Source of the DNA: Paenibacillus sp. DCT19
GTDB taxonomy: Bacteria > Bacillota > Bacilli > Paenibacillales > Paenibacillaceae
Length of the DNA stretch: 64,000 nucleotides
NCBI RefSeq assembly: GCF_003268635.1
Contig: NZ_CP029639.1
Location: 1,995,501-2,059,500, forward strand
Direction: 5' to 3'
Below are positions 1,951 through 57,308 of the stretch, one piece after another; the stretch's first letter is position 1; each line of letters starts with the position of its first letter. A program made the translations under genes and the position numbers. Below the pieces are notes generated by a model. It ran no database searches. It was given only the letters and a program-made list of their open reading frames with translations, and was not told where the DNA came from.

Positions 1951-3061
1951 GCAGTATTCAATCACAAAGATCAAGTAAGAGATGGTGGACAGGGGCTATG
2001 GCTCTTGTCCTGGCTTTACCGGTATTATTGTCAGGGGCAGTAAGTGCTCCGCAGACAGTCGAAGCCAAAGCAGCAATCAGTACAAAAGTGCAGAAAGTAA
2101 AAGCAGCAGGACGAAGCTTCACCGTACAAACGGTTAGTATTCCAAAAGGCACACCAGTGACAGTAGGACTAGCGAAAAAGCAGGTAGGACAGACCGCAAC
2201 ATTGCCTTCCATTGTCAAAGCGTATGGGGCGCAAGCCGCGATTAACGGAGCTTTCTTTGAGGCTTATAATGGTGCTCCAGATCCATATGGCATGTTAATA
2301 GCTAATGGTAAAGTAATACATATAGGAAGATACGGTACAAGCATTGGTTTTAAAGAAGATGGCACAGCAATTATGGATTCACTTCGTGTAAACTTAACAG
2401 GCATGGTAACGACGCCAGAAGGCAAATCCCGCAGTTGGTATGCTACCTTTATTAACAGAACACCGTCTGCAAATGCAAGCATTACGATGCTGTATACGCC
2501 TGAGCGAGGTTCAACGGTTGGGTTCAAAGGGGTACAGCAGTAGTGATCGAGAAAGGGATTGTGACCAAAAAAGTACCGAATACCAATATTGCCATTCCGA
2601 AGAATGGTTCAGTTCTGGTCTTCACAGGTAGCCACAAATCAAACGCCGATCGTTTCGTTGTTGGCTCTACGGTGGAGATGAATTACAAATACACGAATGC
2701 AGAAGGTAAGGAGATTCCTTGGGACGAAGTCGTTACTGCTGTAGGAGCCGGTCCGCGTCTCGTTAAGGATGGGAAGATCTCAATTAATCCAGCAAGTGAG
2801 GGCTTCAAGGATCCGAAAATTCTCAATGCTTCTGGTGCAAGAAGTGGAATTGCCATTATGGCAGATGGTTCGGTTCTTCTGGCAACCGTTTCCGGAGCAA
2901 CGATGAAGGAATGGGCTGCTGTGATGCAGAAGCTTGGAGCGAAGCAGGCGATGAATCTGGATGGGGGTGCATCTTCGGGTATGTATGCGGATGGTAAGAT
3001 GCTCACTTCACCTGGTCGATTGCTCAGCAATACACTTGTTTTTGGTGGCTCTGTTAAGTAA
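1947..3061 (+). pseudogene. Secreted phosphodiester glycosidase family protein, one frame break
   Basis: Extracellular protein with a phosphodiester glycosidase (NAGPA-type) domain. The start is GTG 1947, overlapping the previous stop as GTGA. A signal peptide follows (basic SSKRWW, then a hydrophobic stretch ending near VSAPQTVEA). Family blocks include AAINGAFF and, near the C-terminus, KQAMNLDGGASSGMYADG. As read, the frame stops at 2543 after 198 codons and the rest continues one frame away from 2543 to 3061. Adding one G to the GGGG at 2529-2532 joins the halves through FKGGTAVVIEKG and gives a 371-residue protein. The break matches nine others in this window, so I regard it as a probable sequence error and the real gene as intact. 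Its natural substrate is unknown. A paralogue lies at 46697-47761. Confidence 0.8.
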
Positions 3062-3093
3062 GGCGTTGAACAAAGAAGGGGAGGAATGCACAA

Positions 3094-3776
3094 GTGAAAC
3101 TCACACAACAATTCGAATTGGGCGACAGCCCTACGGCTGTCCTAGCCATAAATGTGGGTCAGCCTAAACCCTTGCCTGGTCAGAAACGTGAAGTGCTGAG
3201 CGGAATTGTGAAGACTCCCGTTTCTAGTCCTGTTTTCTTGTCATTCACAGGCATGACGGGAGATGCACAGGCAGACCTAGAACATCATGGGGACCCGACA
3301 AGGCGGTTTGTGTTTATGATCATAGTCGTTATCCGTTGCTGGAGCAATTGATGAATCGCAAGCTCGAGTGGGGCGCTTGTGGTGAAAATTTGACGGTCGA
3401 GGGCTGTGCAGAGGATCTGGTGCGAATTGGCGATGTATATCAATTAGGCGATGCCAGGGTTCAGGTTAGCCAGCCCAGACAGCCTTGCTTCAAGCTGGCA
3501 GCTCGGTATGATTACAAGGGTTTACCTGTTTATTTTCAGGAAAGTGGTTATACCGGCTTTTATTTTCGTGTGCTACAAGAAGGAGAAGTGAAGCCAGGGT
3601 CTGGGTTCAGACGAATCAGCACGGATCTAACATCCATGACGATTCTGGAAGCGAACCGGGTGATGCATCAGGGTAAGCAGGATGCGGAAGGCATTCGTGC
3701 TCTGCTGGCCATTACAACGCTCTCGGACAGTTGGAGACAGACGTTGGTGAAGCGTTTGGACAAGCTGGAGGGCTAG
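3094..3776 (+). pseudogene. MOSC domain protein, YiiM-like, one frame break
   Basis: MOSC-domain protein of the YiiM type, a molybdenum-cofactor-dependent family linked in E. coli to detoxifying N-hydroxylated bases. The start is GTG 3094 with GGGGAGG upstream. The N-terminal part carries LSFTGMTGDAQADLEHHG and the C-terminal part carries the cysteine block SQPRQPCFKLAARY, the conserved cofactor-binding region. As read, the frame is lost at the GGGG at 3289-3292; one added G gives HHGGPDKAVCVYDHSRYPLLEQ, which is family-like, and yields 227 residues. This is probably an intact gene with a base-calling error. It lies 33 bases after the preceding secreted protein and may be co-transcribed with it. 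Confidence 0.8.
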
Positions 3777-3852
3777 TCTTTGGATTGAACAATTAGAATG
3801 ATCGATGACAGAATGGAATTCCTTTTTAACTTAATTGAGGAGTGTGACGAAC

Positions 3853-4731
3853 ATGACGATCTTAGGCGCAATTGAAGCTGGAGGCACGAAGTTTGTATGT
3901 GGTATTGGGAATGAAAAGGGAGAGGTTCTGGAACGAGCAAGCTTTCCTACGACAACACCTGAAGAAACGATGGCACAAGTCATTGCTTTCTTTGAAGGCA
4001 AAAATATTGAAGCGCTAGGTGTAGGTTCTTTTGGCCCAATCGATCCGATTGAAGGCAGTCCAACTTACGGATACATTACCACTACACCCAAACCACATTG
4101 GGGGCAATACAACCTTATTGGCAAATTGAAGGAACACTATGATGTGCCAATGACGTTTGATACTGATGTGAATGGAGCTGCACTTGGTGAAGCGACTTGG
4201 GGCGCAGCCAAAGGATTAGACAGTTGCTTGTATATTACGGTGGGTACAGGAATTGGTGCAGGTGCTGTAGTATCTGGTCAAATGGTGCATGGGTTGTCTC
4301 ATCCAGAGATGGGACATATCATCGTACGTAGACATCCGGAGGATACCTTTGAAGGCTTCTGCCCTTATCATAGCGATTGCTTAGAAGGACTTGCTGCAGG
4401 TCCAGCGATTAACAAACGATGGGAACAGCCAGCTTATGAGCTATCACCGGATCACAAAGCATGGGAGATTGAAGCCCATTACTTGGCACACGCACTGATG
4501 AACTATGTTCTGATTCTCTCTCCACAGAAAATTGTGATGGGCGGCGGTGTGATGAAGCAGGAGCAGCTCTTCCCGCTGGTACGCAAAAAATTACAGGAAT
4601 TGCTGAACGGTTATGTACAGCACCCAGCACTTCAGTCCGATATCGATCAATATGTGGTTTCACCGGGTCTTGGAGATAACGCAGGGCTGTGCGGCTCCTT
4701 GGCGCTTGCGAAGCTTGCACTAAATAAATAA
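3853..4731 (+). CDS. ROK-family sugar kinase, probable fructokinase
   Basis: Cytoplasmic ATP-dependent sugar kinase of the ROK family (292 residues). The N-terminal phosphate-binding segment GAIEAGGTKFVCGIG and the later VGTGIGAGAV are visible. The metal-binding segment has HPEMGH followed by CPYHSDCLEGLAAG, the Cys/His pattern of bacterial fructokinases such as ScrK and GmuE. Fructose is the likeliest substrate, but mannose or glucose cannot be excluded from sequence. The start at 3853 is preceded by GAGGAG; an upstream in-frame codon at 3835 lacks a site. The gene stands alone, with a terminator-like hairpin downstream. Confidence 0.88.
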   Translation: MTILGAIEAGGTKFVCGIGNEKGEVLERASFPTTTPEETMAQVIAFFEGKNIEALGVGSFGPIDPIEGSPTYGYITTTPKPHWGQYNLIGKLKEHYDVPMTFDTDVNGAALGEATWGAAKGLDSCLYITVGTGIGAGAVVSGQMVHGLSHPEMGHIIVRRHPEDTFEGFCPYHSDCLEGLAAGPAINKRWEQPAYELSPDHKAWEIEAHYLAHALMNYVLILSPQKIVMGGGVMKQEQLFPLVRKKLQELLNGYVQHPALQSDIDQYVVSPGLGDNAGLCGSLALAKLALNK

Positions 4732-4810
4732 AGTATACAACATGAAATGATTGACGAATTTTTCCATTATGGTATGATATGAGCAACAGCATAGCACGGT
4801 TTGTTGAGGA

Positions 4811-4856
4811 AGCACCTCTCTTGCATTCATTTTGCAGGAGGGGTGTTTTTTTTGCC
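4811..4856 (+). terminator. Rho-independent terminator after the ROK kinase gene
   Basis: GCACCTCTCTTGCA and TGCAGGAGGGGTG form an imperfect stem followed by a run of eight T. It ends the kinase transcript, but since the next gene starts at 4924 it could also act as a leader attenuator for that gene. Confidence 0.7.
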
Positions 4857-4923
4857 TTTTTTGAAGGTGATGAGGGTGAGCCTTACAAGCGGTGTAGCTG
4901 AAACTCGAAGGAGGGATTGGTCA

Positions 4924-5925
4924 ATGGAAGTCATTTTTATGAACAGATTAGCCAGAAATACAGACCAGAATGAAGAGCTCGCACAAGTGTGGATTGGCGA
5001 AGAAGAAGGAGCATGGCATCTGGGGTGGAGCTTGTACGAAGAAGGGGATCGAGAGGATATTATCTGGTATGAGGGCAGTTCGTGGGAAGAGCTCATGCAT
5101 ATTTATCGGCATCAACTAGCACTACAGATGAGTGCAGGGTTCCGACCGTTACTGCAAGGGTTATTTCATGAAATTGAAGAGCTCCGCTCACGAAATTATG
5201 GCGGACAACGGCTCCAATGTTACAGTGAATTGTATGCCAATGAGACATTGTACGAAGACTTATGCGCATGGCGTAGAAAGAGAGCCGCATCTGACCGAAA
5301 AGCACCTTATTTTATTGCAACGAACCGGTTGCTTCGCATGATTAGTTCGTATGTGCCGCTGACGATGAATGAGCTGATGCAATTGCCGGGTGTTGGAGAG
5401 AGCAAGGCTTCCGAGTATGGTCAAGCATGGCTGGAGCTAACAAACGGGGTGGAGCGTTCCACCGTATTTCCACTCGACTGGGTATACTCTGCATTGAAAG
5501 AAGAGGAGTATGAGAACTGGCTGTACCGACAGAAAGAGCAGAAGTATAAGCAGGAACTAGATAAGTTCAAGACTCGTAAGCAAGTACTGGAAGGCATGAA
5601 GGAAGGGCATACGTTAGAGGAGATTGTTAACCGTTCGGGATTGTCACGTCGAGAGCTAATCGAATTACTGGAAGTCTTGGATTTAGAGGGGTATGATACG
5701 GATTGTCTTCTTGATGCAGAGCTTGCGATTATGCCTGAACAAGAACAGGAAGCCGTTTGGAGCGCGTATGAGGAACTGGGAGATACGTTTCTGAAGCCTG
5801 TATTACATAAAGTATATGGTGAGGAGAAGCCAGGCGGAGGTAGCCTGGAGCAAGTATATGAGAAACTTCGTATGATCCGGATTCGTTATCGTCGTCATGT
5901 AGAGACAGAGCGAAACGTCGGTTAA
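4924..5925 (+). CDS. HRDC domain-containing protein
   Basis: A 333-residue soluble protein with an HRDC (helicase/RNase D C-terminal) nucleic-acid-binding domain around residues 110-190, recognised from YEDLCAWRRKRA, APYFIATNRLLRMI and LPGVGESKASEYG. There are no helicase or nuclease motifs, so it is a free-standing HRDC protein of unknown role. The C-terminal third is acidic and helical, with a possible helix-turn-helix near GHTLEEIVNRSGLSRRELIE. The start at 4924 has AAGGAGGG upstream. A bidirectional terminator separates it from the convergent corA gene. Confidence 0.8.
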   Translation: MEVIFMNRLARNTDQNEELAQVWIGEEEGAWHLGWSLYEEGDREDIIWYEGSSWEELMHIYRHQLALQMSAGFRPLLQGLFHEIEELRSRNYGGQRLQCYSELYANETLYEDLCAWRRKRAASDRKAPYFIATNRLLRMISSYVPLTMNELMQLPGVGESKASEYGQAWLELTNGVERSTVFPLDWVYSALKEEEYENWLYRQKEQKYKQELDKFKTRKQVLEGMKEGHTLEEIVNRSGLSRRELIELLEVLDLEGYDTDCLLDAELAIMPEQEQEAVWSAYEELGDTFLKPVLHKVYGEEKPGGGSLEQVYEKLRMIRIRYRRHVETERNVG

Positions 5926-5942
5926 TGGCTGATTAAACTCAA

Positions 5943-5998
5943 AAAAAGACGAGGCCTTATTCCCAGTAGGGAGGCTTCGTCTCCTGTTCTTTTTTTAT
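5943..5998. terminator. Bidirectional terminator between the HRDC gene and corA
   Basis: AGACGAGGCCT and AGGCTTCGTCT form a stem flanked by an A run on the left and a T run on the right, so it can end both convergent transcripts. Confidence 0.85.
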
Positions 5999-6017
5999 AT
6001 GTTGATTCTGCTGCTAT

Positions 6018-6953
6018 TCATATCCAGTCTTTTTTGCGGAAAATGAAGAACATACTCAGGCCAAGTGTTACCATAAGCCCAATAACGACAAAGTATGAAT
6101 ACTTCCAGTGCAATTCTGGCATAAATTCGAAGTTCATCCCATAGATACCGGTAATAACGGTCAAGGGCATGAACACTGTCGTGATGGCGGTAAACACACG
6201 CATAATCTCATTCGCTCGGTTAGCAATACTGGATTGATAAGCTTCACGTAAGTTGCCCATCAGATCCCGATAGGTTTCGAATGTCTCGGATATTTTCACT
6301 GCATTCTCATAAATATCGCTAAAGTATTTCTGCAATTGATCATCAATGAGACGCAGGTCTTTTTTGTTAAGAGTATTAATGACCTCTTTTTGAGGACCAA
6401 GCACTTTTTTGAGCCATAGAATCTCACTACGAAGCCCGATGATTTCGTTAAGGTGAGATTTTTTGGTGTGCATTAGAATATCTTCCTCAAGCTTTTCGAT
6501 CCGTGCCTCAATCCGATCACCGACAGTAAAATAATTATCGACAATTAAGTCAACCAGCAAATATAACAGACGATCCGGAGTGCTGATTTCCTGTTCCCAT
6601 AGAATAGGTTTTAAAGTTCGCAGCTCACTGACTTTCTGTTTAGTCACACTGATAATAAAATGTCTGCCCAAGAACAGGTTGACAGCACGTAAGAATATCT
6701 CTTCATCATCAAAACGAATGCTGTTAATGACAATAAAATAATGACTTTCATAAATTTCGATCTTTGGACGCTGTTCCTCGTCACTTAAGCAGTCTTCGAC
6801 CGCCAGGTCATGCATCATAAATAGCGGCTGAAGCACGGCCAGATCATCCACATCTGCATCAATCCAGTAAAAGCCCTCCGCTGGTGGAGTCAGCGCTTGC
6901 TGAATGTCCTCCACTGGGATAAATACACCGTTGTTTACCAACCGGATTTTCAT
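6018..6953 (-). CDS. corA: Magnesium/cobalt transporter CorA
   Basis: CorA-type divalent cation channel (311 residues, usual size). It has a long acidic cytoplasmic N-terminal domain, then two C-terminal membrane helices. The signature YGMN lies at the end of the first helix (GIYGMNFEFMPELHWKYSYF region) and a basic tail FRKKDWI ends the protein. It imports magnesium, possibly cobalt or nickel. The start at 6953 (MKIRLVNNG) is chosen because AGAAGGAG lies just upstream; an in-frame ATG at 6974 sits upstream of that site. A long structured leader precedes the gene. Confidence 0.92.
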   Translation of the reverse strand: MKIRLVNNGVFIPVEDIQQALTPPAEGFYWIDADVDDLAVLQPLFMMHDLAVEDCLSDEEQRPKIEIYESHYFIVINSIRFDDEEIFLRAVNLFLGRHFIISVTKQKVSELRTLKPILWEQEISTPDRLLYLLVDLIVDNYFTVGDRIEARIEKLEEDILMHTKKSHLNEIIGLRSEILWLKKVLGPQKEVINTLNKKDLRLIDDQLQKYFSDIYENAVKISETFETYRDLMGNLREAYQSSIANRANEIMRVFTAITTVFMPLTVITGIYGMNFEFMPELHWKYSYFVVIGLMVTLGLSMFFIFRKKDWI

Positions 6954-7200: not shown

Positions 7201-7406
7201 ACAACACCTGTTTAGTATACCGCTGGTCCAAGGTGCTTTCAAGCGCAAAAATGTGTCTATTTCGCGCCCTGAGGCAGTGTATGACAGGAGGTGAAAAACG
7301 GTTCCGAGATGTAGATGCTTAAGATGAACTGTAGCTTGACGTGAACGGATTAATGTTTTAAAGTAAACGGAAAGCAATTATATTTCAAAAATTAAATACA
7401 GCGAAA

Positions 7407-7530
7407 TCTTATCAAGAGTAGGTGGAGGGACTGGCCCGATGAAACCCGGCAACCGGCGGTATACCGCACGGTGCTAATTCTTGCAGCGACTAAGTGCCCA
7501 AGAGGTACTGTTGTAACTGAGAGATGAGAG
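7407..7530 (+). ncRNA. SAM-I (S-box) riboswitch upstream of metA
   Basis: Shows the S-box landmarks in order: CTTATCAAGAG, GGTGGAGGGA, the GATGAAACCCGGCAACC block, GGTGCTAATTC and a closing GAGATGAGAG. Together with the following terminator it should switch off metA-metI-metC when S-adenosylmethionine is plentiful. Nothing gene-like is seen between the corA leader (7200) and this element. Confidence 0.95.
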
Positions 7531-7550
7531 AGGCGCATATCTGTTTACAT

Positions 7551-7588
7551 ATGACCTTTCTCGGAATCCGAGGAAGGTCTTTGTTATA
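7551..7588 (+). terminator. Expression-platform terminator of the SAM riboswitch
   Basis: GACCTTTCTCGGA/TCCGAGGAAGGTC forms a strong stem followed by TTTGTT. It lies just after the aptamer and about 140 bases before metA. Two further small hairpins occur between it and the start codon. Confidence 0.8.
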
Positions 7589-14806: not shown

Positions 14807-15694
14807 TCACAAGACCCGCATGGGATCAATGTGTCGCACGATTGATTTGAGCCAGATCATTTCAAGAAAGTGAACCTCGTAATAGAGTGCGCCTGGAAAA
14901 TGTTGAACCCATCCATCGCTTGCAGCTGATTGTATAGAATGACTAGACGGGTTAGATGTTAAAGGTTCTCTGCGCAATCGTTTCCGCAAAGCCTGCGTGA
15001 CTTGATCCCTTTGCGCGGTTAAAATATACACCTTACGTTTCGCAGAGAATCCACGGAAAGCCACGTACACCATTTCATAAGCAATCAGATATGCGATGAC
15101 AGAATACATGGCCTGATCCCAACCAAATACAACACCAGCAGCCGTTAGAATCAGCAAGTTAAGCAGCATGATTATTTTTTCGATAAGCATCCGTTTCCCG
15201 CTAAATAAACGTTCAGGTGGCCGAGAAGACGGATCACCGATTTCCAGCGTATCCAGTGTCCCGCCATAACGCACCACTAGCCCAATTCCTATTCCCAGAC
15301 ATAACCCGCCGAACATCGCTGCGGCAAGTGGATGTTCTACTAGTGGTGGCATGGGATGAAGCACGATGGCACCGATCGAAAAGACAACCAGACCCAACAC
15401 AGTAACGAGTACAAACTTTTTCTGCACGATCTTATAGGATAAAAATATAAATGGAACGTTGAATAAGAAGAGGAATAATCCAATTCTCATCTCAGTCCAA
15501 TGGGCAAATAACGATGAAATGCCCGTAATGCCTCCAATAATGATTTTATTGGGATGAAGGAACAATTCAAGTCCCACGGAGGCCAGAATGCCACCTGCTA
15601 TCACAAGTAAAAGATTTAACAGGCGACGGCTCGATGAGATTCTGGTCTTGGTGGTTTGTGGCGCCGGATTAGCCGATATCAGAGGTGCCTTCAT
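14807..15694 (-). CDS. YitT/DUF2179 family membrane protein
   Basis: Polytopic membrane protein with an N-terminal YitT domain (about five helices, from NLLLVIAGGILASVGLELFL) and a C-terminal cytoplasmic DUF2179 domain (KVYILTAQRDQVTQALRKRL to IVRHIDPMRVL). Length 295, usual for the family, whose function is unknown. AAAGGAGG lies upstream of the start. One oddity: residues about 152-170 (GDPSSRPPERLFSGKR) are polar where relatives have a hydrophobic helix. A shift of frame there gives VIRLLGHLNVYLAG, so a local sequence error is possible. Confidence 0.8.
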   Translation of the reverse strand: MKAPLISANPAPQTTKTRISSSRRLLNLLLVIAGGILASVGLELFLHPNKIIIGGITGISSLFAHWTEMRIGLFLFLFNVPFIFLSYKIVQKKFVLVTVLGLVVFSIGAIVLHPMPPLVEHPLAAAMFGGLCLGIGIGLVVRYGGTLDTLEIGDPSSRPPERLFSGKRMLIEKIIMLLNLLILTAAGVVFGWDQAMYSVIAYLIAYEMVYVAFRGFSAKRKVYILTAQRDQVTQALRKRLRREPLTSNPSSHSIQSAASDGWVQHFPGALYYEVHFLEMIWLKSIVRHIDPMRVL

Positions 15695-15800: not shown

Positions 15801-17035
15801 TTATCCTTCTTTTTGCAAAACCTTAGGTTCTTCTTTTTTCTTGCGTGGATCTTTGAACTTGAATATTTTATCCAAAATTCTAAACACATGTTTGGACTCT
15901 TTGGTCAACAATGGTCCAAGGATTGCCAGAATGAGTACATACAACGCGGCAAATGGTTGAATCATTGCCATCCCCCGGCTTTACCCATGTTGGCCAAGAT
16001 AATGGAAAATTCACCACGTGACACAATGGTTAATCCAATATTAGCCGATGCTTTTGGAGATAAGCCTGCGCTACGTCCAGCCAGCATGCCTGCAAGGAAA
16101 TTACCAAACAATGTTAGAGCTACTGCAATCAGAGCTAACCACACGGCATCGCCACCCAGAGACAACGGATCAATGGAGAGCCCGAAGCTGAAGAAGAAGA
16201 TAGCTCCAAAGAAGTCACGGAACGGTAGAATCAAGTGCTCAATCCGTTTAGCGTGTTCCGTTTCAGCAAGAACGAGTCCGACTAACAAAGCCCCAATGGC
16301 TTCAGCAACATGAATGGTTTCAGAGAAACCGGCCACGAGGAACAATGCACCGAATACAACGAGTGAGAATATCTCGTTAGATCGTATTTTAAGCAGTTTA
16401 TTCAATAATGGCGTTGCTTTACGTCCAAGAATAATCACAATTAACATGAACCCAAGGGCAATAAGTGCGGACATAATGACGCCTCCGATGGAGGATGAAT
16501 CACTGAGTACCAGTCCGGACAAGATCGAGATGTATACAGCGAGAAACACATCTTCAAACATGATGATTCCCAGGATCATTTCAGTCTCTGGATTAGCTGT
16601 ACGTTTCAGATCGACGAGTACCTTGGCTACAATGGCACTTGATGAAATAGTGGTGATACCTGCAATAACCAATGCTTCTGCAACTGGGAAACCGGAAGCA
16701 AAACCGAATATTAATCCCAGTGTAAAGTTAATACCGATATAGATCGAGCCGCCAACTGCAATAGAGCGACCCGATTTAACTAAACGACCTACCGAGAATT
16801 CAAGACCAAGGTAGAAGAGAAGGAACAAAATACCAATCCGACCCATGAAATCAATAAACGGCTGACTCTCAATGAAACGGAAGTCCATATGCCAAATCTT
16901 CATGGCATGTGGCCCAACGGCCATTCCGACTAAAATATAAAACGGAACAACCGAAAAACGTAGTTTAGCAGATAGGAGTCCGGCTGCTGCAATGAGCACC
17001 AGCGCCAGACCCACTTCGAATATCAAATGATCCAT
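15801..17035 (-). pseudogene. Cation/proton antiporter (KhtU-like, CPA2), one frame break near the C-terminus
   Basis: Membrane antiporter of the CPA2/KefB family (KhtU type), expected to export potassium or another monovalent cation in exchange for protons. Blocks include LLFYLGLEFSVGRLVKSGRS, GITTISSSAIVAKVL and IVSRGEFSIILANMGKAGG. As read it stops at 15962 (357 residues), cutting off the last helix. Adding one G on the coding strand at the run 15972-15976 continues the frame through MIQPFAALYVLILAILGP to a charged tail ending KVLQKEG at 15801 (411 residues). This fits the pattern of single-base G/C run losses in the window. It directly follows its regulatory subunit gene. Confidence 0.82.
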
Positions 17036-17533
17036 TCACTCACCCCTCCCGCTCAGGAGGAGGGATTTAAACAGTTTCTGTTGATTGCGTTCGCCAACGG
17101 CTACCACCGTGGATTCTGCACTGATAACTACCTCCGGACCTGGGCTGATATGTTTTTTGTGGTTTTTCTCAACAACGGCAATAACCGTTGCTCCAGAGTT
17201 TTGACGTACGTCTAGTTCGCCAATGGATTTACCGATACATCCGTAGGATGCCTCAATTTTGTACCATTCAATGATCAGATCATCAAAAGTAACTTCAATG
17301 TTCTCAAGTTGTTTAGGCTTATAGGTCAAGCCGCCGACAATAGCAGCGATCTGTCTTGCTTCATAATCATCCAGGGTGATCATGGAGATGCTTTGATCTG
17401 GATCATCGTATTCAAAGTGATACATTTCACGACGTCCATCATCGTGAATAATGATTACAATTTTATCGCCACTGCTCGTTTCAATCTGAAATTTCTTACC
17501 GATACCTGGTAGATCCGTTTCGCGTACATCCAT
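17036..17533 (-). CDS. Antiporter regulatory subunit with TrkA-C domain (KhtT-like)
   Basis: Soluble 165-residue protein; the C-terminal half is a TrkA-C (RCK-C) ligand-binding domain ([20 protein letters not shown]). It resembles KhtT, which partners KhtU and responds to nucleotides or other ligands to gate cation efflux. AAGGAGG precedes ATG 17533. Its TGA is followed immediately by the antiporter ATG, so the pair is co-translated and probably forms one complex. Confidence 0.88.
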
Positions 17534-17883: not shown

Positions 17884-18258
17884 CTATAGGAGTGGGGAAA
17901 CATACATACTGGTGTATTTGATAGGTAGCAGAATTAATCTGCGCTTAAACAGACAAATCAACGGTTTAAAGGGCAGACGTGGCGTCGGAATCCGAAGTAT
18001 CAATAGCAATGCAAGCACAAGAAAGACTGGTTTCTTATGCACAACCGCAAGGAGTTTAGCCATCACTTGTGGGTATCTACGGATGACGGGCTTCTGTTGA
18101 GACTCTGGAATCTGAATCATTATTTCCTTGTTAGAGTTGGAATCAACAGATACGCCGACAGCGGATTCTGTCTGCATCGGAATAGGGAAGCAGAGGGCTT
18201 GGAATACGCACAAAATGATAATCAAAACGCTGCGAAGAATTCTTGGTTGTGTTCTCAT
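17884..18258 (-). CDS. Hypothetical small membrane protein
   Basis: A 124-residue protein I do not recognise. The N-terminus looks like a signal anchor (MRTQPRILRSVLIIILCVFQ), followed by a polar stretch, then a second hydrophobic helix (KPVFLVLALLLILRI) and a basic C-terminal part rich in proline and leucine. AAGGGGGGAA lies just upstream of ATG 18258, the main support that the gene is real. It is divergent from ytxC, with about 300 bp between the starts. Confidence 0.55.
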   Translation of the reverse strand: MRTQPRILRSVLIIILCVFQALCFPIPMQTESAVGVSVDSNSNKEIMIQIPESQQKPVIRRYPQVMAKLLAVVHKKPVFLVLALLLILRIPTPRLPFKPLICLFKRRLILLPIKYTSMYVSPLL

Positions 18259-23328: not shown

Positions 23329-24374
23329 ATGAAACGATCTACGCGGGACCGCTGGTGGGTGGGCATTCCCCTCATAGCTATTGGTGCAATGATCTTGTTC
23401 AGACAATTGGGATATGACATTGATATAGGATACATTTTCAGAACCTACTGGCCGTTGTTTTTAATCTGGTGGGGTGCAAAAGGGATTTCCGAAATTCGGC
23501 GCAATGGGGGCTACGCCTTCATCGGTCCTGTTATCGTATTGTTGATCGGTGGTTACTTTCTTGCCCGCAATCTGGGATGGATCGACTATTCAATGGGAGA
23601 GTTCATCCGTTATTTGATTCCGGTGATGCTGATTGGCGGAGGATTGTTTGTATTGGTCGGACCACGGAGACGTGATCGGAAGCATCAGGATAAAATGCAG
23701 TCACCTCCACCACCTGAACAGCCTTATCAGCCTTTGCCACCAGAGGATTTGGAAATGCATTCAACATTCGATGAGCAGTTCGAGAAAACATTTGGTAAAC
23801 CAAAGCAGGAACAGAAACAGAATCCACATGGTTCATTCCATACAGAGCAAGAGCACTCCAACTCTTATGAGCATGAGCAATATAAAAAGCACAGCACACA
23901 AGATACTTCTCACAAAAAATATGGAAAATTTGATTCGAGCGACCATTATGGTCAGCATTCCAACGATTACGGGAGCTACGGAGGCTATGGCGGCGATACA
24001 ATCAATAAGTCTGCCTTTATAGGTGATCTGTACATGGGACAGGAAGTATTCACGCTGAAGCCGATGAACATTTCCGCATTTATCGGGATACGGTAATTGA
24101 TTTGACGAAAGCACAGATCCCGTATGGTGAGACCAAAATTGTGATCTCGAACTTTATAGGGGATGTCAAAGTATTCGTTCCAGAGGATATGGATCTTGGT
24201 GTGACGGTGACAACCAATTCCTTCATAGGTGATATGTCGCTGCTGAACCAGAAGCGTGGTGGTTTCATGAGCAGTGCCCAAGCTGAAACTGCACATTATC
24301 GTGAAGCAGGCAAAAAGGTGCGGATCATTGTGAGTGTATTTATCGGTGATGTCAAAGTCAATAAGGTGGGTTAA
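23329..24374 (+). pseudogene. liaF: LiaF-like membrane regulator, one frame break
   Basis: Membrane protein of the LiaF family, the accessory inhibitor of the LiaSR cell-envelope stress system. Four N-terminal hydrophobic segments (from WWVGIPLIAIGAMILFRQLG) are followed by a long Gln/His-rich linker and a C-terminal LiaF domain with repeated SAFIGD, SNFIGDVKV and NSFIGDMSL units. As read, the frame stops at 24096 after SAFIGIR. One G added to the GGG at 24085-24087 continues as FIGDTVIDLTKAQIPYGETK to 24374 (348 residues). This is a probable sequence error. liaS starts three bases after the stop. Confidence 0.85.
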
Positions 24375-28944: not shown

Positions 28945-30404
28945 ATGTCCATTCGGTTAAGATTAACCGCATGGTATTCGGGTATTTTGGCAGCCGTGCT
29001 TATCTTCTGGGCAGTCGTGATTTATGCTTTTGTCTATTTTAACTCTTACCAGGAAGTGGAACAGCAATTAAAGGTTAAGAGCGAACGCATTACCGAGCAA
29101 ATCGGTGTTAATCCGCTTTCCCAATCGCTCGACCTAGATCCATTTACAGAAAGTCAGCTTCAAGAAGCACAGATCTATATTCAACTGGTGGACTATCAGA
29201 GCAGATCGATCAAGATCTCAGGAAATATGGAGAAGGCTGGCATTGACTTTCCTGTGGTGGAGCTGAAGGACATACGGGAACAGCGAGGCATATCCAAAAT
29301 ATACGTACATGGTACTCCTTTTCTTGTGAATCAGCAGCCGTTATCCCTTCAAGGAACGAATGAAATTAGGGGACTTCTGCAAGTGGGTGCGAATGTTACT
29401 TCCCAGGAGCGGCTACTGGAAGCACTGCGTAATATATTGATTTTTGGCTGGCTTGTGGCGATGGCTCTTGCCATTACATCAGGGCTTATTTTGGCTCGTA
29501 AATCGATGCGGCCGTTGGTTAATGTCATTGATGCTGCCAATCAGATTCAGTCAGGAAATGACCTCAGTGTGCGGATTCAATACACAGGGCCAAAGGATGA
29601 GATTGGACGGCTTATTGAAACGGTGAATAACATGCTTGAACGAACAGAATTATCCTTCCGGGGCTTGGAGGAAACCAATGCGGCTCAGCGACGATTCGTA
29701 TCTGATGCATCGCATGAGCTACGTACACCACTTACAACGATTCGGGGTAACGTAGATTTCCTGAAGAAGCTGTGGGATCAGGAGAGTACGGATCGTCCGA
29801 ATCTTGATGAAGAGACCGTTAAAGAGATGTCGCTTGAGGCGATTGAGGATATGGCGGATGAGGGGAAACGGATGAGCCGACTCATTAGTGACATGTTGTC
29901 ACTAGCGAGAGCGGATACGGGTCAGAAGATAGAGCTGAATCCAATTCCATTGCAGATTCTGGTGCAGGAAGTGGCTCGCAGATCGCAATTCTTAGATCGT
30001 CAGTCCGAATGGCGTCAGGGTGATCTATCGATCCTTAATGGCATTTATGTTAACGGTAGCAAAGATTATTTGCAGCAAATGCTGTTTATTTTTATTGAGA
30101 ATGCGTTTAAATACACTCCGGAAGGGTCAGTCACACTTGACGCTATCCTGTACAAAGGTCAGGTAGGGCTACGCATCAGTGATACAGGCATTGGTATGGA
30201 GCGAGACGAGGTACCGTTTATCTTTGACCGTTTCTATCGTGCAGATGAATCACGCGGAGCGACACCAGGGATCGGCTTAGGGCTATCGATTGCCAAGTGG
30301 ATTATTGAAGAGCATCATGGCTCGGTAGAAGTCGTTACTAAACGTGGAGAAGGTACCACATTTATTATCTGGTTGCCTGTTGTCTTTGCTCCCCTATCGA
30401 ATAA
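28945..30404 (+). pseudogene. Sensor histidine kinase, probable frame break at the extreme C-terminus
   Basis: Membrane kinase partner of the preceding regulator. Two membrane helices (about 10-33 and 163-184) enclose an extracytoplasmic sensor. Then come HAMP, HisKA with H257 in SDASHELRTPLT, and HATPase_c with N-box IFIENAFKYTPEG and GIGLGLSIAKWI. The frame as read runs on to 30561, but residues after WLPVVFAP are unlike kinases and overlap the 5' end of ispH out of frame. Adding one C to the CCCC at 30391-30394 ends it as APPIE at 30404 (486 residues), which I take as the real end. The functional part is unaffected either way. Confidence 0.85.
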
Positions 30405-30473: not shown

Positions 30474-31426
30474 GTGGAAGTACTGCGAATTTCGCCACGG
30501 GGATATTGTTACGGAGTTGTGGATGCCATGGTATTGGCACGTCAGGCTGCACGTAATCTAGATCTACCCCGGCCTATATATATATTGGGAATGATTGTGC
30601 ACAACAAACATGTGACAGATTCCTTTGAAGATGAAGGCATTGTCACATTGGATGGGCCTAATCGGATGGAAATTTTGAGCCAGGTAGAGAGTGGCACTGT
30701 TATTTTTACAGCACATGGTGTATCTCCAGAAGTCCGTAAGCTGGCACGTGATAAAGGGCTGACTACAGTGGATGCGACTTGTCCAGATGTAACGAAAACC
30801 CATGACCTTATTCGCGAGAAGACGGCTGAGGGGTATCAGATTATCTATATCGGCAAAAAGAATCATCCAGAACCTGAGGGTGCCATAGGTGTTGCTCCGG
30901 ATCAGGTTCATCTGATTGAAAAGGAAGAAGAGATCGAGCAATTGAATGTACCAAGTGGCAAAATTCTGATTACCAATCAGACCACAATGAGCCAATGGGA
31001 CATCAAACATATTATGAGTCGTCTGCTGGAGAAATTTCCAGGCGCTGAAATTCACAATGAGATATGTTTAGCTACACAGGTTCGTCAGGAAGCTGTGGCT
31101 GAACAGGCAGGACAGTCGGATCTCGTTATCGTTGTTGGTGATCCGCGGAGTAACAATTCAAACCGGCTGGCTCAGGTTTCCGAAGAAATCGCGGGTGTCA
31201 CAGCTTATCGTGTGTCAGATGTATCTGAAATTCAGCAAGAATGGCTGAAGGGCGTGAACAAAGTAGCGGTTACTTCAGGAGCATCAACACCGACACCGAT
31301 TACGAAGGAAGTCATCACGTATCTGGAGCAGTATGAGCATGATCAACCAGAGACGTGGGAAATCAAACGTACAGTGAATATGAGTAAACTGTTACCCCTG
31401 TTCGCGAGAAAACACGTACAACCTAA
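30474..31426 (+). pseudogene. ispH: 4-hydroxy-3-methylbut-2-enyl diphosphate reductase IspH, frame break in the last residues
   Basis: Last enzyme of the MEP isoprenoid pathway; an iron-sulfur enzyme making IPP and DMAPP. The three cluster cysteines lie in PRGYCYGVV (C12), VDATCPDV and [21 protein letters not shown] is also present. As read, the frame runs on to 31610 through a transcription terminator, giving an unlikely tail. One C added to the CCCC at 31395-31398 yields [13 protein letters not shown] and a stop at 31426, ten bases before that terminator (317 residues). The start is GTG 30474 ([10 protein letters not shown]) or GTG 30462; neither has an ideal ribosome site. Confidence 0.85.
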
Positions 31427-34668: not shown

Positions 34669-34837
34669 CTCGAATTGAAATGTTGTAGTGCTTTAACTTT
34701 GCAGGGTGATAAAGGAATTTGATAGCTCAGATTGTGTTTTCAGTGCTTATTTCACTTGAAGCATATAGGGAATACTGATATCATAGCGATAATATTTACT
34801 TCTTATGTAAGCTATGGATGGAAAGGGCGGGGATATT

Positions 34838-36139: not shown

Positions 36140-36604
36140 ATGGCTTTACACATTGTTCTGGTTGAGCCCGAAATTCCTGCGAATACGGGCAATATATCCC
36201 GCACATGCGCGGCTACCGGCATCCACCTACATCTGGTTCACCCACTGGGCTTTCGTACGGATGACGCTACACTGAAGCGTGCAGGCTTGGATTACTGGCA
36301 TGCTGTACACATTGAATATCATGATTCTTTTGCTGAAGTTCAAGAGAAATTCCCTGAAGGACGATTTTTCTACGCAACGACGAAGGCGAAAAATCGGTAT
36401 AGCGATTTTGAATTCCGTGATGGGGATTTTCTCGTTTTTGGTAAAGAAACCAAAGGCCTTCCGCCGGAACTCATTGCAGCTAACCCAGAAACGTGCATGA
36501 GAATGCCAATGACAGGTGACGTAAGGTCGTTGAACCTCTCCAATTCTGCAGCGATTATCGCCTATGAGGCATTGCGTCAACTGGAATTCCCGGGTCTAGA
36601 TTGA
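36140..36604 (+). CDS. trmL: tRNA (cytidine/uridine(34)-2'-O)-methyltransferase TrmL
   Basis: SPOUT-family methyltransferase that modifies the wobble base of leucine tRNAs (154 residues, full length). Landmarks are VLVEPEIPANTGNISRTCAA, GFRTDDATLKRAGLDYW, LVFGKETKGLP and the SAM-binding knot MPMTGDVRSLNLSNSAAI. AAAAAGGAGAT precedes the ATG. Confidence 0.93.
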   Translation: MALHIVLVEPEIPANTGNISRTCAATGIHLHLVHPLGFRTDDATLKRAGLDYWHAVHIEYHDSFAEVQEKFPEGRFFYATTKAKNRYSDFEFRDGDFLVFGKETKGLPPELIAANPETCMRMPMTGDVRSLNLSNSAAIIAYEALRQLEFPGLD

Positions 36605-36776
36605 CCGGGGTTCCATCCTGCGAACAGGTTACGAATGGTCAAAAAAAACATTTTTCAAAAAAAAGGACAAAAAATGTTTATTTCCAGCAGGATTCGACAA
36701 AATGTTGGCGAATCTATAAACTTAGTACAAATGTACCTAGAAATTTAGAGTGAGATAGGAGAGGTGTGCCGTAGCT

Positions 36777-37151: not shown

Positions 37152-38062
37152 TTAGGATAGGATCGGGAGAATCTCAGTCCACACAGCGTCAAGAATCTGT
37201 TGCATTTGATCTTCTTCACTGTTGATCGAGATGACGGCTTGCTGTGCAGGCAAAATGATACACAGTTGACCGTGAGCTCCATCGGCACGATATGCATCAT
37301 GCGAACACATCCAGAATTGATATCCGTAACCTTTACCCCAATCACCGGCTCCAGATGTCATAATCTGTCTACGTGTAGCACTTCGAATCCACTCAGCACG
37401 TATAAGCTGCTGCCCCCTCCAGTTGCCCTCCTGAAGAAGCAATTGCCCGAATCGACTTAATTCCTCATTACTAATCCAAAGACCTGCGCAACCCAAAGTG
37501 ACACCAAGTGGAGAGGTTTCCCAATCAACGTCATGTATACCGAGTGGTTCAAATAAACGGGGGTTAAATAGTCTTTCACGGTTTGCCCGGTTGCTGCTTG
37601 AAACAGAGCAGAGATCATGAATGTATCCCCACTGCTGTATGTAAATTGTTCCCCTGGCATCCGATCTAAAGGTAGCGACATGTAATATTTGACCCAATCC
37701 TTCTCTTCCAAAGAAGCACGTTCTTCTACGTGTAGCGGAGGATTGTTATGTCCTGAAGACATACGAAGCAGATCCCCCAACGTTAACTGCTGTGGAGGAA
37801 AAAACGTCTCAGAGATGGAGGGGAGATTATCGTATGTGAAATACTCGCCAAGTGTTGAATTAAGGTGAAGTAAGCCTTCTTCAATCGCAAGGCCAACAGC
37901 CATGCATGTGAAAGATTTACTGATGGAGTGCTGTAAACGGCGAGCATCTTGATCGCGATCCCATTGTGCTATGAGCTTCCCGTTACGCAAAACGCGAGCA
38001 GACAACACGTTAAGTTGATCATTCTTTATTTTATGGACAAATCTATTTAGCTTGTTAGTCAT
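37152..38062 (-). pseudogene. Serine hydrolase, beta-lactamase fold (class C type), one frame break
   Basis: Cytoplasmic-looking serine hydrolase of the beta-lactamase/esterase family. The catalytic serine-lysine pair lies in SISKSFTCMAVG, and the YxN-like position is YSSGD. No signal peptide is seen. The start ATG 38062 (MTNKLNRF) has GAAAGGTGG upstream; the longer frame to 38134 includes the operator and is rejected. As read, the frame breaks at the GGGGG at 37559-37563 (plus strand). One added base joins DYLTPRLFEPLGIHDVDWET and gives 303 residues. It is divergent from the sugar-uptake operon and probably shares its regulation. Substrate unknown. Confidence 0.78.
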
Positions 38063-51500: not shown

Positions 51501-51518
51501 TTCAAACGATATGACATA

Positions 51519-51565: not shown

Positions 51566-51642
51566 ATAAACGTCGCAGCGATATGCGTCGATTCGAATCA
51601 TGGTTGGTTGAATCATACAAACGGGAAGGTGCATCCCGTAGT

Positions 51643-52454
51643 TCAGTCCTCTTTTCCAGCTATATAGGATAATACCTCTTCAGCAACATGCTCCAAATCG
51701 TTACTCCATTCCAACTCATTCATGCGACGTTCTAGCAGATCCTGTTGATCAAGCATATGTGCATGTGCTGTAAGAGCCTCAATTCCCTTAACGGTAAGGA
51801 TGTATTTCCCCGGGATACTCGTTCGAACCAGCCGTAATAATTTTTCTGCAGAATCGATGCGGTCGAACCCACTCCTGTTTGTTTCACAATCATAGCTGGC
51901 GAAGCTTCACCTTCGCTCCTTAAAGCAGCAGCAACACGTAATGCTTTTTCGCGGTAAGCCGTAATCAAGGGCCTTCGTGTGCTCCCCCCTGTATTGTAAT
52001 CCCCGGTACGTTCATCGAATTCCTTTAGAAGCCGCTGCCGTCTTACTCCGCCTTTACGAGAAGCTGAAGGGAGCGCATGATTCAGTGAGGTGGGTTCACA
52101 GAGGACGTCAATCAGAGGCGATTTGGTTTTGTAGAACGTGACAGCGATCAAGCCAAGTTCCAGTTTAGTGCAGACTGCGGTCAATTCACTCCAGCGTTGG
52201 TTCACCGCTCCGCGTTTGCTACGGTTACGTTCTACCGCTAAATATACGTTTGGACTTAGTTTCAATCGCTGCATCCCTTGTAGAAGGAGAGACAGGTTGA
52301 AGGACTTCTTCATCTCCACAATTAAAGGTACGTCCTCATCTGCCCTGATGCCAACCAGATCACAATGCTTTACTTCGGCTCTCACGGTGTATCCCCGCTT
52401 CTCGAAGAATGCTTTTACAGGTGGATATAATTCGGTTTCGTATTGTATGGCCAT
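51643..52454 (-). pseudogene. DUF2161 family PD-(D/E)XK-type protein, one frame break
   Basis: Protein of the DUF2161 family, predicted to have a PD-(D/E)XK nuclease-like fold: the core motif is CDLVGIRADEDVPLIVEMKK (D, then E-x-K). A basic middle and a winged-helix-like C-terminus follow. The start is ATG 52454 with AAAGGAGAA upstream. As read, the frame breaks at the CCCC at 51808-51811 (plus strand) and ends at 51732 with an odd tail. One added base gives RVSRGKYILTVKGIEALTAH and a stop at 51643 (270 residues). This is a likely sequence error. It is divergent from prkA; biological role unknown. Confidence 0.78.
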
Positions 52455-52813
52455 TCCCGCTTCTCCTTTCCTAAGTAGATCCTCTTCCTTGCTAAGTGCT
52501 GTCCGTTTTCCTGAATTAGAACCTTTATTATAGCATATCAGTTCTTTTTTTTCTGAGGGCCAAGATGTCTGATAGAACAAGGAAAGGGTAAAATTAAGAC
52601 CTACGAATTGAAAAAAAGAGGTCAACTTATCCAATTTGCCGCATAGGTATGTAATACACTTTTCACAACAATATCAGTCGTTTGGACAGAGGGTGGCGGG
52701 ACTAATCCGGACCGCAGATGGGTATTCAAGCAGGAGCCGCAATTCTATTGATTTCTTCATACCATTCGGAATGGTTGACAATCACACTAAAGGAGCCATG
52801 GGAGGTACCAAGC

Positions 52814-54709
52814 ATGAATATTTTTGAACGCGTTGCGGAACATCGGGCAGAGAGTGACCGTTTGTCATGGAACGGAACATTTGAGGATTACATCGCACTG
52901 CTGAGAGAAGATCCGACTCCGGCAATGACGGCTCACGCACGAGTGTATCAGATGATTGAATCATTCGGCGTGGAAGAAGTGGGTGGACAGAAACGATACA
53001 AGTTTTTTGAACAAGAGATTTTTGGCTTGGATCGTTCCATTGAGAAGCTAGTCGAGGAATATTTCCATTCAGCAGCACGCCGATTAGATGTACGTAAACG
53101 GATATTATTACTTATGGGACCCGTTAGCGGAGGGAAATCTACACTGGTGACGTTACTGAAACGTGGCTTGGAGAAGTTCTCCCGTACAGAAAAGGGTGCA
53201 GTGTACGCCATTGAGGGATGCCCAATGCATGAGGAGCCTTTACATCTCATTCCACTGGAGCTTCGTCCAGAAGTGGAGAAGGAAATAGGTGTTCGAATTG
53301 AAGGCAACCTATGCCCTTCCTGCCAGATGCGGCTTCGTACAGAATATGGCGGAGATATTAGCCGGGTGAAGGTGGAACGAGTCGTCATTTCGGAAGATAA
53401 CCGTGTAGGGATCGGAACATTCAGTCCATCTGATCCGAAATCTCAGGATATCGCAGACCTCACAGGGAGCATTGACTTCTCCACGATTACCGAGTTTGGT
53501 TCGGAGTCTGATCCGCGTGCTTATCGTTTCGATGGGGAGCTTAATAAGGCGAACCGTGGACTCATGGAGTTTCAGGAGATGCTGAAATGTGATGAGAAAT
53601 TTCTCTGGAACTTGTTATCTTTAACGCAAGAAGGGAATTTCAAGGCTGGACGATTTGCATTAATCAGTGCGGATGAAATGATTGTTGCACATACGAATGA
53701 ATCGGAGTACAAATCGTTTATTTCCAACAAAAAGAACGAGGCTCTGCAATCCCGGATGATTGTAATGCCGATACCTTACAATCTGAAGGTGTCTGAGGAA
53801 GAGAAAATTTATGAGAAACTCATTCAACAAAGTGACATGAAGCATGTTCACATTGCGCCGCATGCGCTGCGGACAGCAGCCATTTTCTCAATACTTACCC
53901 GCTTGAAAGAAACGAAGAAACAAGGTATGGATCTGGTTAAGAAAATGCGGATGTATGATGGCGAGGAAGTTGAAGGGTACAAGGAAGCGGATCTGCGTGA
54001 AATGCAAAATGAGTATTTGGATGAAGGGATGTCGGGAATCGATCCGCGGTACGTCATCAACCGGATATCCAGTGCTTTGATTAAGCAAAATCTTCAGTGC
54101 ATTAACGCGCTGGATATCCTACGGGCGATCAAGGATGGTCTGGATCAGCATGCTTCTATCTCGAAAGAAGAGCGTGAACGTTATCTGAACTTTATTGCTC
54201 TGGCTCGCAAAGAATATGACGAGCTTGCGAAGAAAGAAGTGCAAAAAGCGTTTGTTTATTCATTCGAGGAGTCTGCAAAAACATTGTTTGAGAACTACCT
54301 TGATAATATTGAAGCTTTCTGCAACTGGTCCAAAATTCGAGATCCATTGACGGATGAGGAGATGGATCCAGATGAGCGCTTGATGCGTTCGATTGAGGAG
54401 CAGATTGGAATTTCTGAAAATGCGAAAAAAGCGTTCCGGGAAGAGATTTTGATCCGAATCTCAGCATACTCCCGCAAGGAGCGCAAGTTCGAATATAGCA
54501 GTCATGATCGACTGCGTGAAGCGATTGAGAAAAAGCTGTTTGCTGATCTGAAAGACATTGTCAAGATTACGACATCAACGAAAACTCCGGATGCGACGCA
54601 GTTAAAACGAATGAACGAAGTCATTAAGCGATTAATCGAGGAACATGGCTACACTGCGGCGAGTGCCAATGAGTTATTGCGCTATGTGGGCAGTTTATTG
54701 AATCGCTGA
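52814..54709 (+). CDS. prkA: Serine protein kinase PrkA
   Basis: AAA-type protein kinase/protease-like protein of 631 residues, the same length as Bacillus PrkA, involved in sporulation control. The Walker A motif is GPVSGGKST (about 102-110); the C-terminal half is the PrkA kinase-like domain. The start is ATG 52814 with GGGAGGT upstream; the frame upstream (from 52718) is not used. In many genomes prkA travels with yhbH and spoVR. Here yhbH is absent, and spoVR lies 9 kb downstream on the other strand. Confidence 0.95.
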   Translation: MNIFERVAEHRAESDRLSWNGTFEDYIALLREDPTPAMTAHARVYQMIESFGVEEVGGQKRYKFFEQEIFGLDRSIEKLVEEYFHSAARRLDVRKRILLLMGPVSGGKSTLVTLLKRGLEKFSRTEKGAVYAIEGCPMHEEPLHLIPLELRPEVEKEIGVRIEGNLCPSCQMRLRTEYGGDISRVKVERVVISEDNRVGIGTFSPSDPKSQDIADLTGSIDFSTITEFGSESDPRAYRFDGELNKANRGLMEFQEMLKCDEKFLWNLLSLTQEGNFKAGRFALISADEMIVAHTNESEYKSFISNKKNEALQSRMIVMPIPYNLKVSEEEKIYEKLIQQSDMKHVHIAPHALRTAAIFSILTRLKETKKQGMDLVKKMRMYDGEEVEGYKEADLREMQNEYLDEGMSGIDPRYVINRISSALIKQNLQCINALDILRAIKDGLDQHASISKEERERYLNFIALARKEYDELAKKEVQKAFVYSFEESAKTLFENYLDNIEAFCNWSKIRDPLTDEEMDPDERLMRSIEEQIGISENAKKAFREEILIRISAYSRKERKFEYSSHDRLREAIEKKLFADLKDIVKITTSTKTPDATQLKRMNEVIKRLIEEHGYTAASANELLRYVGSLLNR

Positions 54710-54733
54710 CCGAATATCAGACCATTCCGGATC

Positions 54734-54789
54734 AGGCTCTTAATGCCTGCTGTGAGGCTCCTTCACGGCAGGATTGAGAGCCTTTTTAC
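54734..54789 (+). terminator. Terminator after prkA
   Basis: AGGCTCTtaaTGCCTG pairs with CGGCAggaTTGAGAGCCT (imperfect), followed by TTTTT. Confidence 0.8.
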
Positions 54790-54919
54790 ATGATTTACGT
54801 AGAAATGAAGTGAGTTTAATCACAATTCAGTACAAATTTATGACAAAATAGTTCTAATGGTTTATGAAAAGGTAGGCCATTTAGTCTATAATCTATACAA
54901 TATTTAGAAATTAAAGTTT

Positions 54920-55146
54920 CTTATAGTACGTGTTCAAAAAGATCGGTTTTCAGTATCGAGAAGATGGGATGAAGCAGAAATGGAGTAGCGGAGCGTAGGC
55001 AAACTACGTGAGCAACTACATGTTTCCGAAGGAAACAAGCTGCGTAAGCATCCACTTATTTCGGCTGAATTCCATATTCGATGTTGAGATGCCGCTCGCG
55101 CATCATTCGTAATCAAAAGCGGACTTTTTGAACAACCTCTTATAGC
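54920..55146 (-). repeat. Dispersed TIR-type element, full copy B
   Basis: About 225 bases, the inverse of the copy at 26100-26290. It ends GCGGACTTTTTGAACAACCT and begins GTACGTGTTCAAAAAG. It differs by an extra ~30-base segment with the palindrome GTTTCC-GAA-GGAAAC near 55022. It fills most of the prkA/globin-sensor gap (54710-55171), which has no gene. Confidence 0.85.
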
Positions 55147-55171
55147 TTACTAAGGAGTCGATTACATCACT

Positions 55172-56170
55172 ATGAGTATTACTGCAGCAAGACAGAAACA
55201 ACTCGATTATATTGGACTAACAAACAAGGATTTGCAGTTACTTGCCGCTCACCGGCCTGTTTTTGAGAAGGTAGTCAATGAAGTTGTTGATCACTTTTAC
55301 AGACATGTAGGCAACTATCCTGAACTGGTGGATCTGATTGCTCGATTCTCGAACATTGACCGATTAAAAGAAACACAACGCATGTATTGGTTATCGATGA
55401 CAGATGGTGTCGTGGATGACGCCTATATTCATCAACGCATTGAGATTGGGCTGGTACACTCACGAATTGGATTGTCTGAAGATTATTATTTAGGTACATA
55501 TATGGTCTATCTCGATATTGCGACAACCATTTTCCAGCAGGTCATTCCAGAGTCATGGCATCCCATCATTCAGGCACTTAGCAAAATGTTCAATCTGGAC
55601 TCTCAGCTTGTACTGGAAGCTTATGAGAAAAAAGAAAAAGAAAAGCTGCATCATCTCGCTGCGGATCAACAAAATACGTTGCTGGCGATTACGCAAATTA
55701 CACAACAGTTGACAGGTATGATCACTGAACTGAATGAAAATGCACGAGCGATCTCCGATGTAGCTATGCAGACGGCAGCTTCCCAGGATCAAGCACATAA
55801 ATTGCTGGAAGAGTTAACAGGAGAGATTAATCAGATCGGTAAGATGGGAGAACTGATCCGTGAAATTTCAGATCAGAGTCACCTTGTAGGATTGAATGCA
55901 GCAATTGAAGCTGCACATGCCGGGGAGTTCGGTCGGGGCTTCGAGGTGGTTGCGAGTGAGGTGCGTAAGCTTGCAGCGAGTTCTCGCGATGCGCAAGGTA
56001 AGATTCAGGCTAATCTAGAACAGATTATGAAGAAGCTCAGCCATGTACAGAAAGAATCAGAACATACATCACAGGGGGCACAGAGTCAAGCATCCCGTTC
56101 TCAGGAGCTGGCTGTATTCGCCACAACGATGGAGCAATTGGCAGTAGATCTGCAGAAACTGGATCATTAA
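55172..56170 (+). CDS. Globin-coupled sensor with MCP signalling domain (HemAT-like)
   Basis: Soluble heme sensor (332 residues). The N-terminal ~160 residues form a protoglobin-type sensor (proximal His region [18 protein letters not shown]). A short MCP signalling domain follows, with its conserved hairpin tip and [20 protein letters not shown]. It resembles HemAT, which senses oxygen for aerotaxis, but is about 100 residues shorter than Bacillus HemAT, with a truncated coiled coil. Output may be chemotaxis or another partner. AAGGAGTCG lies upstream of the ATG. Confidence 0.9.
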
Positions 56171-56305
56171 GTTGTAGATAATACACCTGTTGGAACCGGT
56201 ATTACCGTTTCTGGCTGTTTTGAGCTATAATGGGTAGACAAACCTGCCGATGCGTTAGCGAAAGCAGTCGGAGACAGGGGATTTATAAGAGGTTGAGGTG
56301 ATCAG

Positions 56306-57308
56306 ATGGCTTCTATCCATGATGTGGCCAAAGAAGCGGGCGTATCTGTTGCAACCGTTTCCAAAGTGCTGAATGACTATCCGGATGTAAGTGATAAAAC
56401 TAGAAAAAAAGTCAATATAGCCATCGAACTATTAAAATATCAACCGAATGTGGTCGCACGTGGATTAGTTAAACGTCGCTCTTGGACAGTAGGTGTTCTC
56501 TTAACCGTTCCGTTTACCAATCCATTTGTATCGGAATTACTGGAAGGGATCAAAACAGCGCTGGAGAACAGTGGATATGATCTTGTTCGTTTATCTACAC
56601 GTTTCGATGACCCTGGCTACTCATTCATCAAGCATTGTCGTAGCCGTAATGTGGATGGTGTTGTTGTATTTGGCGAAGGAAGGGAAAACCAAAGTATTCA
56701 AGAACTGATTCATGCAGAGATTCCAACGATGTTTGTGGACACCGATTTGTTTGGCAAACGAGCTGGATATATCACAACAGATAACGCGAATGCTATCGGC
56801 ATGAGTGTTAAACATTTAGTTGAGCTCGGGCATCGCCGGATCGCATATATTTCGGGTACATTAGGATCGGCGGTAGCGAATCTAAGGCTGGACGGGTACA
56901 AAGAAGGACTGCGGCTCTGTGATATCCCATATTCGACCATCTATTTGGAGGAATGTGATTATTCATTTGATGGTGGGGTAAGGCGGCAAGAAGACTATTA
57001 GCCCTGAAGGATCATCCTACTGGCATTGTCTGTGCTTCAGACATGTCTGCATTTGGAGCGATTCAAGAAATTGAACGGCATGGTCTGCGTGTACCTGAGG
57101 ATATATCGGTTATTGGCTTTGACAATACATACTATGCGCAGGTGTTTAAGCCTGGACTAACGACCATTAATCAAAATATATATTCAATTGGAATTAAGTC
57201 GATTGAGTATCTGATTGCAATGGTCGAGAATCCAGACTATACCCCCCGGTAGTTACGGAGCCTTCCAATCTAGTTATTCGTCATACAACAGCACCTGTGC
57301 CTGAATAG
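56306..57308 (+). pseudogene. LacI-family regulator near the xylanase, two frame breaks
   Basis: LacI-type repressor. The N-terminus is MASIHDVAKEAGVSVATVSK and the sensor-domain end GFDNTYYAQVFKPGLTTINQ. As read it falls into two pieces (56306-57001 and 57043-57252). One added G at the GGGG at 56975-56978 joins FDGGGKAARRLLALKDHPTG. One added C at the C run 57242-57247 continues YTPPVVTEPSNLVIRH to a stop at 57308 (334 residues). Both repairs restore family sequence, so the gene is probably intact. GAGGTGATC precedes the ATG. It lies 225 bp upstream of the xylanase gene and may control it. Confidence 0.82.

Follow-up and report, generated by a model that had tools for sequence, protein, structure and literature searches.

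Under-counted G/C runs as the almost certain source of frame breaks in the genome record of Paenibacillus sp. DCT19

Published parallels and the present assembly

Genome assemblies from long reads have been found to retain errors in runs of identical bases. According to extracts of two reports, all differences observed in PacBio assemblies were located in G/C runs of 4-10 bases, which were one base shorter (PMC11649196), and the 205 indels remaining after PacBio polishing fell nearly all into G or C runs (PMC4832174). Clostridium autoethanogenum is a further case: its PacBio genome is described as carrying about 240 single-base deletions in runs, which made genes appear frame-shifted (PMC4687164). 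For nanopore data, the excerpted findings are that run lengths are underestimated, more strongly for C/G than for A/T, and that genes become fragmented (PMC8486125; PMC12007338).

The genome record of the soil bacterium Paenibacillus sp. DCT19, a single contig of 6,667,063 bases, shows a comparable pattern in the stretch of 64,000 nucleotides analysed here (bases 1995501-2059500, in the following called the window). As in the extracts of the first two reports, the residual errors reside in G/C runs, and the shortfall is the one base known from PacBio; however, those assemblies were polished or checked with other reads, whereas only relatives were compared in this study, and the error density is higher here (PMC11649196; PMC4832174). 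The case of C. autoethanogenum shares one-base run deletions that mimic frameshifts, but T runs were also hit there, whereas A/T runs are spared here (PMC4687164). With the nanopore assemblies, as excerpted, the present record has in common that runs are under-counted, that C and G are affected most, and that genes are fragmented (PMC8486125; PMC12007338). From nanopore reads, long A/T runs would be expected to suffer as well, yet they are spared in this record. The G/C-only signature is matched best by the published PacBio assemblies and second by the nanopore assemblies. The likeliest source would be an assembly from long reads only, probably from PacBio reads used without short-read polishing; nanopore, which ranks second to PacBio, may be the platform, but is clearly less likely.

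As judged from the sequence comparisons presented below, the breaks are almost certainly consensus errors, i.e., under-counted G/C runs in the assembly, and not biology. The length of G/C runs would have been under-counted almost always by one base, rarely at runs of three or four, but at about a quarter of the runs of five and at four of the ten runs of six. Under-counting of this kind would affect genes, intergenic regions and rRNA copies and would make about one gene in ten of the stretch studied seem frame-broken, and the living organism almost certainly possesses the longer runs and working genes.

The interrupted runs of the window

Among the genomes compared, the closest relative at a probe gene is P. 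tundrae DS1314 (G013; 91%), which is collinear with the window across 63.4 kb at 92-93%. Together with G011, G023, G022 and G016, it makes up the five relatives that were aligned at the window sites. The original prediction had named ten G/C runs at which nine genes lose their frame, and this part is borne out: all ten are exact runs of G or C with lengths of 3-6 (Table 1), and the frame differs from that of the aligned relatives. The window is one base short relative to all five relatives at 2529, 3289, 24085, 30391, 37559, 51808, 56975 and 57242. The further claim that one added base restores the family sequence everywhere goes too far, since 15972 is no simple one-base site: four bases are lacking there relative to 5/5 relatives. 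At 31395, G013 alone could be aligned; it has one additional base there, which is cancelled by a gap further on within the block. Through 15972, 24085, 30391 and 31395, the family frame is kept in 27/27 of the named relatives compared (27 of 49 loci, the 22 at 46-63% identity being left out).

Table 1. Frame-changing G/C runs of the window and the genes affected (window positions; run bases at the ten original sites are those of the plus strand).
Gene	Gene position	Run	Gene strand	Remarks
Phosphodiester glycosidase-domain gene	~1947-3061	G, 2529..2532	+	reads as two ORFs; PF09992 in the G013 copy
MOSC-domain gene	~3094 to 3776	G, 3289..3292	+	frame loss; PF03473
YitT-family gene	15694-14807	14819..14821 (14820), beside short G run	-	PF02588; position in run approximate
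CPA2-type antiporter gene (Na/H exchanger type)	17035 downwards	C, 15972..15976	-	net four bases short; PF00999
Gene	17533-17036	C, 17043..17046, at stop codon	-	one residue added; position approximate
LiaF-like gene	23329 onwards	G, 24085..24087	+	frame loss; PF09922
Histidine kinase gene	28933/28945 onwards	C, 30391..30394	+	at very end of gene; HisKA and HATPase_c whole
ispH	30474 onwards	C, 31395..31398	+	in C-terminal tail; frame kept in 27/27 relatives
Serine hydrolase gene (beta-lactamase fold)	38134-37152	G, 37559..37563	-	frame loss; PF00144
DUF2161 (PD-(D/E)XK) gene		C, 51808..51811	-	frame loss; PF09929
LacI-family regulator gene, first run	56306 onwards	G, 56975..56978	+	frame loss; PF00356, PF13377
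LacI-family regulator gene, second run	56306 onwards	C, 57242..57247	+	frame loss again

As judged from their sequences, two of the affected genes are barely broken. In the histidine kinase, about the last 3 residues, which are the same in 27/27 relatives, are altered before the frame runs on into an added tail. In ispH, the single match in the genome, about the last 10 residues are altered and a tail is added, but the LytB domain is whole and its match (LYTB) ends about 22 residues before the break, which would not be lethal on its face. The use of ispH as an essential-gene argument in the original prediction is therefore weak, and rplB carries that argument instead.

By a reading of the gap list, the window shows 16 deficits relative to G013 at G/C runs of at least three, including the ten. 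The list of ten breaks was incomplete, since the frame changes at 14820 and 17046 had been missed. The YitT-family gene loses its frame at 14820 about nine residues before its end, where the tails of the window and G013 copies differ; the C run at 17046 is one base shorter than in 5/5 relatives. A further deficit lies at 17897 within a small ORF whose status is doubtful; the intergenic ones are found at 34828, 41307 and 50809. The claimed absence of insertions applies to the interiors of genes, but outside genes there are a gain in a G run at 36606 and a gain of one C at 54709. The run at 36606 has four bases instead of the three in G013, is located directly after a gene that ends at 36604, and represents the sole G-run gain in the window. 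A SAM riboswitch (RF00162, 73.9 bits) was also recognized in the window at 7406-7530, upstream of the genes starting from 7705.

Known contingency loci carry G/C runs, and the location of the breaks in such runs might recall phase-variable tracts whose length switches genes on and off, or tracts expressed by slippage that restores the frame. However, the runs are only 3-6 bases long, and no tract is conserved, because the relatives interrupt the runs: this is the case in 5/5 relatives at 2529, 37559 and 57242, and in 4/5 at 3289, 15972, 24085, 30391, 51808 and 56975. Moreover, the losses also occur in housekeeping genes, in rRNA and in runs between genes. Phase variation or expression by slippage is rejected as an explanation and is regarded as extremely improbable.

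Dependence of the losses on run length and their effect on reading frames

Run lengths were compared with G013 over 342 kb around the window and 54 kb around the ribosomal operons, with runs being paired only where they were bounded by identical bases; runs bearing substitutions were left out, and the counts refer to clean cases only. The relatives G016 and G022, which are 92.2% identical over 233 kb, served as control pair. The loss rate climbs with the length of the G/C run in G013: the run is shorter in the DCT19 record in 6/2726 cases at length three (0.2%), 13/484 at four (2.7%), 20/84 at five (23.8%) and 4/10 at six (40%). Losses far outnumber gains, with 43 G/C runs being shorter and 7 longer (p 2e-7). 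In the control pair, no shortening was seen among 52 G/C runs with five or six bases, one of 318 was shorter at length four, and 4 shorter runs were found against 3 longer ones over all G/C runs. As to A/T runs, 47 are shorter and 40 longer than in G013 (p 0.52), and those of 5-8 are shorter in 16/821 cases. The systematic homopolymer under-calling put forward in the original prediction is accordingly retained for G/C runs but not for A/T runs. A general homopolymer artefact is excluded because A/T runs vary both ways, and the bias is towards G/C runs.

The same numbers bear on a mutator strain that, due to a defect in mismatch repair, would truly be losing bases at runs. The frames of MutS2 and of a third MutS-like protein are indeed interrupted in the record, but these interruptions themselves adjoin G runs, and MutS aligns gap-free with G013 over 3553 bases, a comparison covering MutS outside its N-terminal part and not extending to mutL. 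A/T runs are the expected first victims in a mutator strain, yet they vary equally in both directions, and such a strain would still require a working rplB. The mutator explanation is rejected and has next to no probability. As a separate observation, a C-run gain also lies ahead of the gene for the third MutS-like protein.

No clear motif was recognized when 24 shortened runs of at least five bases were compared with 70 that had kept their length. An A precedes the run in 14/24 shortened and 28/70 kept cases, and G and C runs of the plus strand are hit in proportion (G:C = 19:5 among the shortened and 57:13 among the kept runs). Among runs of at least five, shortening is commoner outside ORFs (11/29) than inside (13/65; p 0.08), and part of the non-coding share may therefore be real variation.

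Frame events relative to G013 were sought over the 342 kb in those G013 ORFs that comprise at least 150 codons, with the ORF ends being excluded; 254 ORFs of that size lie wholly within the alignments. In total, 41 net frame changes were recorded in 40 ORFs (33 of -1, 4 of +1 and 4 others). In 22 of these 41 events, a single base is lost in contact with a G/C run of at least three; if the run may lie within two columns, the number is 23, in 22 ORFs. Two window sites are not among the 23, namely 51808, which the alignment puts three columns off, and 15972, the four-base case. The events were found regardless of runs, and bases inside G/C runs of at least three, which define the chance level, amount to 4.4% of the window. 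Under the same rules, the control pair yields 0/8 events touching a run and 1/8 within two columns (0/9 and 1/9 in the reverse direction). Some of the frame events do not occur at G/C runs. One-base losses in T/A runs were also noted inside ORFs outside the window, at contig positions ~2067761, ~2087303 and ~2170035; these three may be real mutations or rarer under-calls.

True gene decay, in which the frame losses would be real mutations in genes no longer needed, draws on the facts that some differences in G/C runs between species are real and that the affected genes of the window mostly look dispensable. The expectation expressed in the original prediction, that real decay would be more varied, is in line with the prevalence of one narrow kind of event (22/41), an excess that is missing from the control pair. 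Furthermore, the codons behind the breaks evolve like those of working genes. Nonsynonymous and synonymous codon differences from G013 number 195/759 ahead of the 23 breaks and 169/837 after them, where one stop occurs in 4533 codons, compared to 2884/12363 and 11 stops in 219 unbroken ORFs; the relaxed constraint that marks pseudogene decay was not found behind the 23 breaks in this comparison with G013. In addition, rplB and rRNA are affected. Gene decay is likewise rejected, and we consider its chance to be minimal.

Although the completeness of the genome is listed as 99.98%, about every tenth gene in the stretch studied seems to have a broken frame, so that pseudogene counts, claims of missing genes and protein sets derived from this genome are unsafe.

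Ribosomal protein L2, other housekeeping genes and rRNA

The decisive case is rplB, located outside the window, together with 23S rRNA copies that differ in G/C-run length. Only one match to rplB is present, which has 248 open codons compared to 282 in both G013 and G016, its frame being lost where a C run around codon 34 is one base short. TIGR01171 assigns the G013 copy to ribosomal protein L2, which is essential. A sequencing error is almost certain because the same shortfall hits this ribosomal protein gene needed for life, and the frame breaks are almost certainly present in the record and not in the organism. What under-calling predicts is indeed observed: the losses depend on run length, go in one direction, do not spare essential genes or rRNA, and are absent from the independently assembled relatives. 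As judged from the aligned sequences, the pattern itself, its dependence on run length and its extension to rplB and rRNA are shown. Such cases can be settled from assemblies alone by a read-free test that combines a matrix of run lengths, drawn up against a close relative and backed by a control pair, with an inspection of rRNA copies and of a gene for a ribosomal protein.

The 54 kb around the ribosomal operons contain 10 frame events relative to G013, 9 of them of -1, whereas 5 events and no one-base G/C-run losses were found between G016 and G013 over the same 54 kb. The genes with frame events include those for RadA, DisA, RlmB, an Eis-like protein and a Clp ATPase, and the frames of RadA, DisA, RlmB and the Clp ATPase are lost in the same way as that of rplB. 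The Clp ATPase, which we take to be ClpC, has ClpB as its best NCBIfam model, scoring below the cut-off of that model. Other events of this region include some in opposite-strand ORFs that are possibly not genes. Essential genes are affected only now and then, since six genes of the tRNA-synthetase family PF00133 have open frames at least as long as those of G013. Matches to PF00009 show shorter frames here in 3/12 cases (197 vs 659, 477 vs 549 and 411 vs 437, paired by rank).

In another reading, the short G/C runs are truly in the DNA and hundreds of one-base losses, those in rplB and rRNA included, are tolerated because RNA polymerase or ribosomes slip at G/C runs frequently enough to yield functional products. 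We regard this as extremely improbable compared with under-counting in the assembly.

Among the rRNA genes, one of the four 16S copies lacks a C from a run of four. The 23S copies (three full and five partial) show nine gap-bearing columns, seven of which represent differences in G/C-run length. Three of the columns were testable in five relatives, for which 28 copies, out of 47 matches, were compared over the first 845-1081 bases of 23S; the longer form is present in 28/28 copies at two of the columns. At the third, 12 copies have five bases and 16 have four, with uniform lengths within each genome; this column is equivocal because the relatives differ there between species. In one relative, G020, the rRNA copies differ from each other block by block, and one C column of the 16S rRNA is among the differences.
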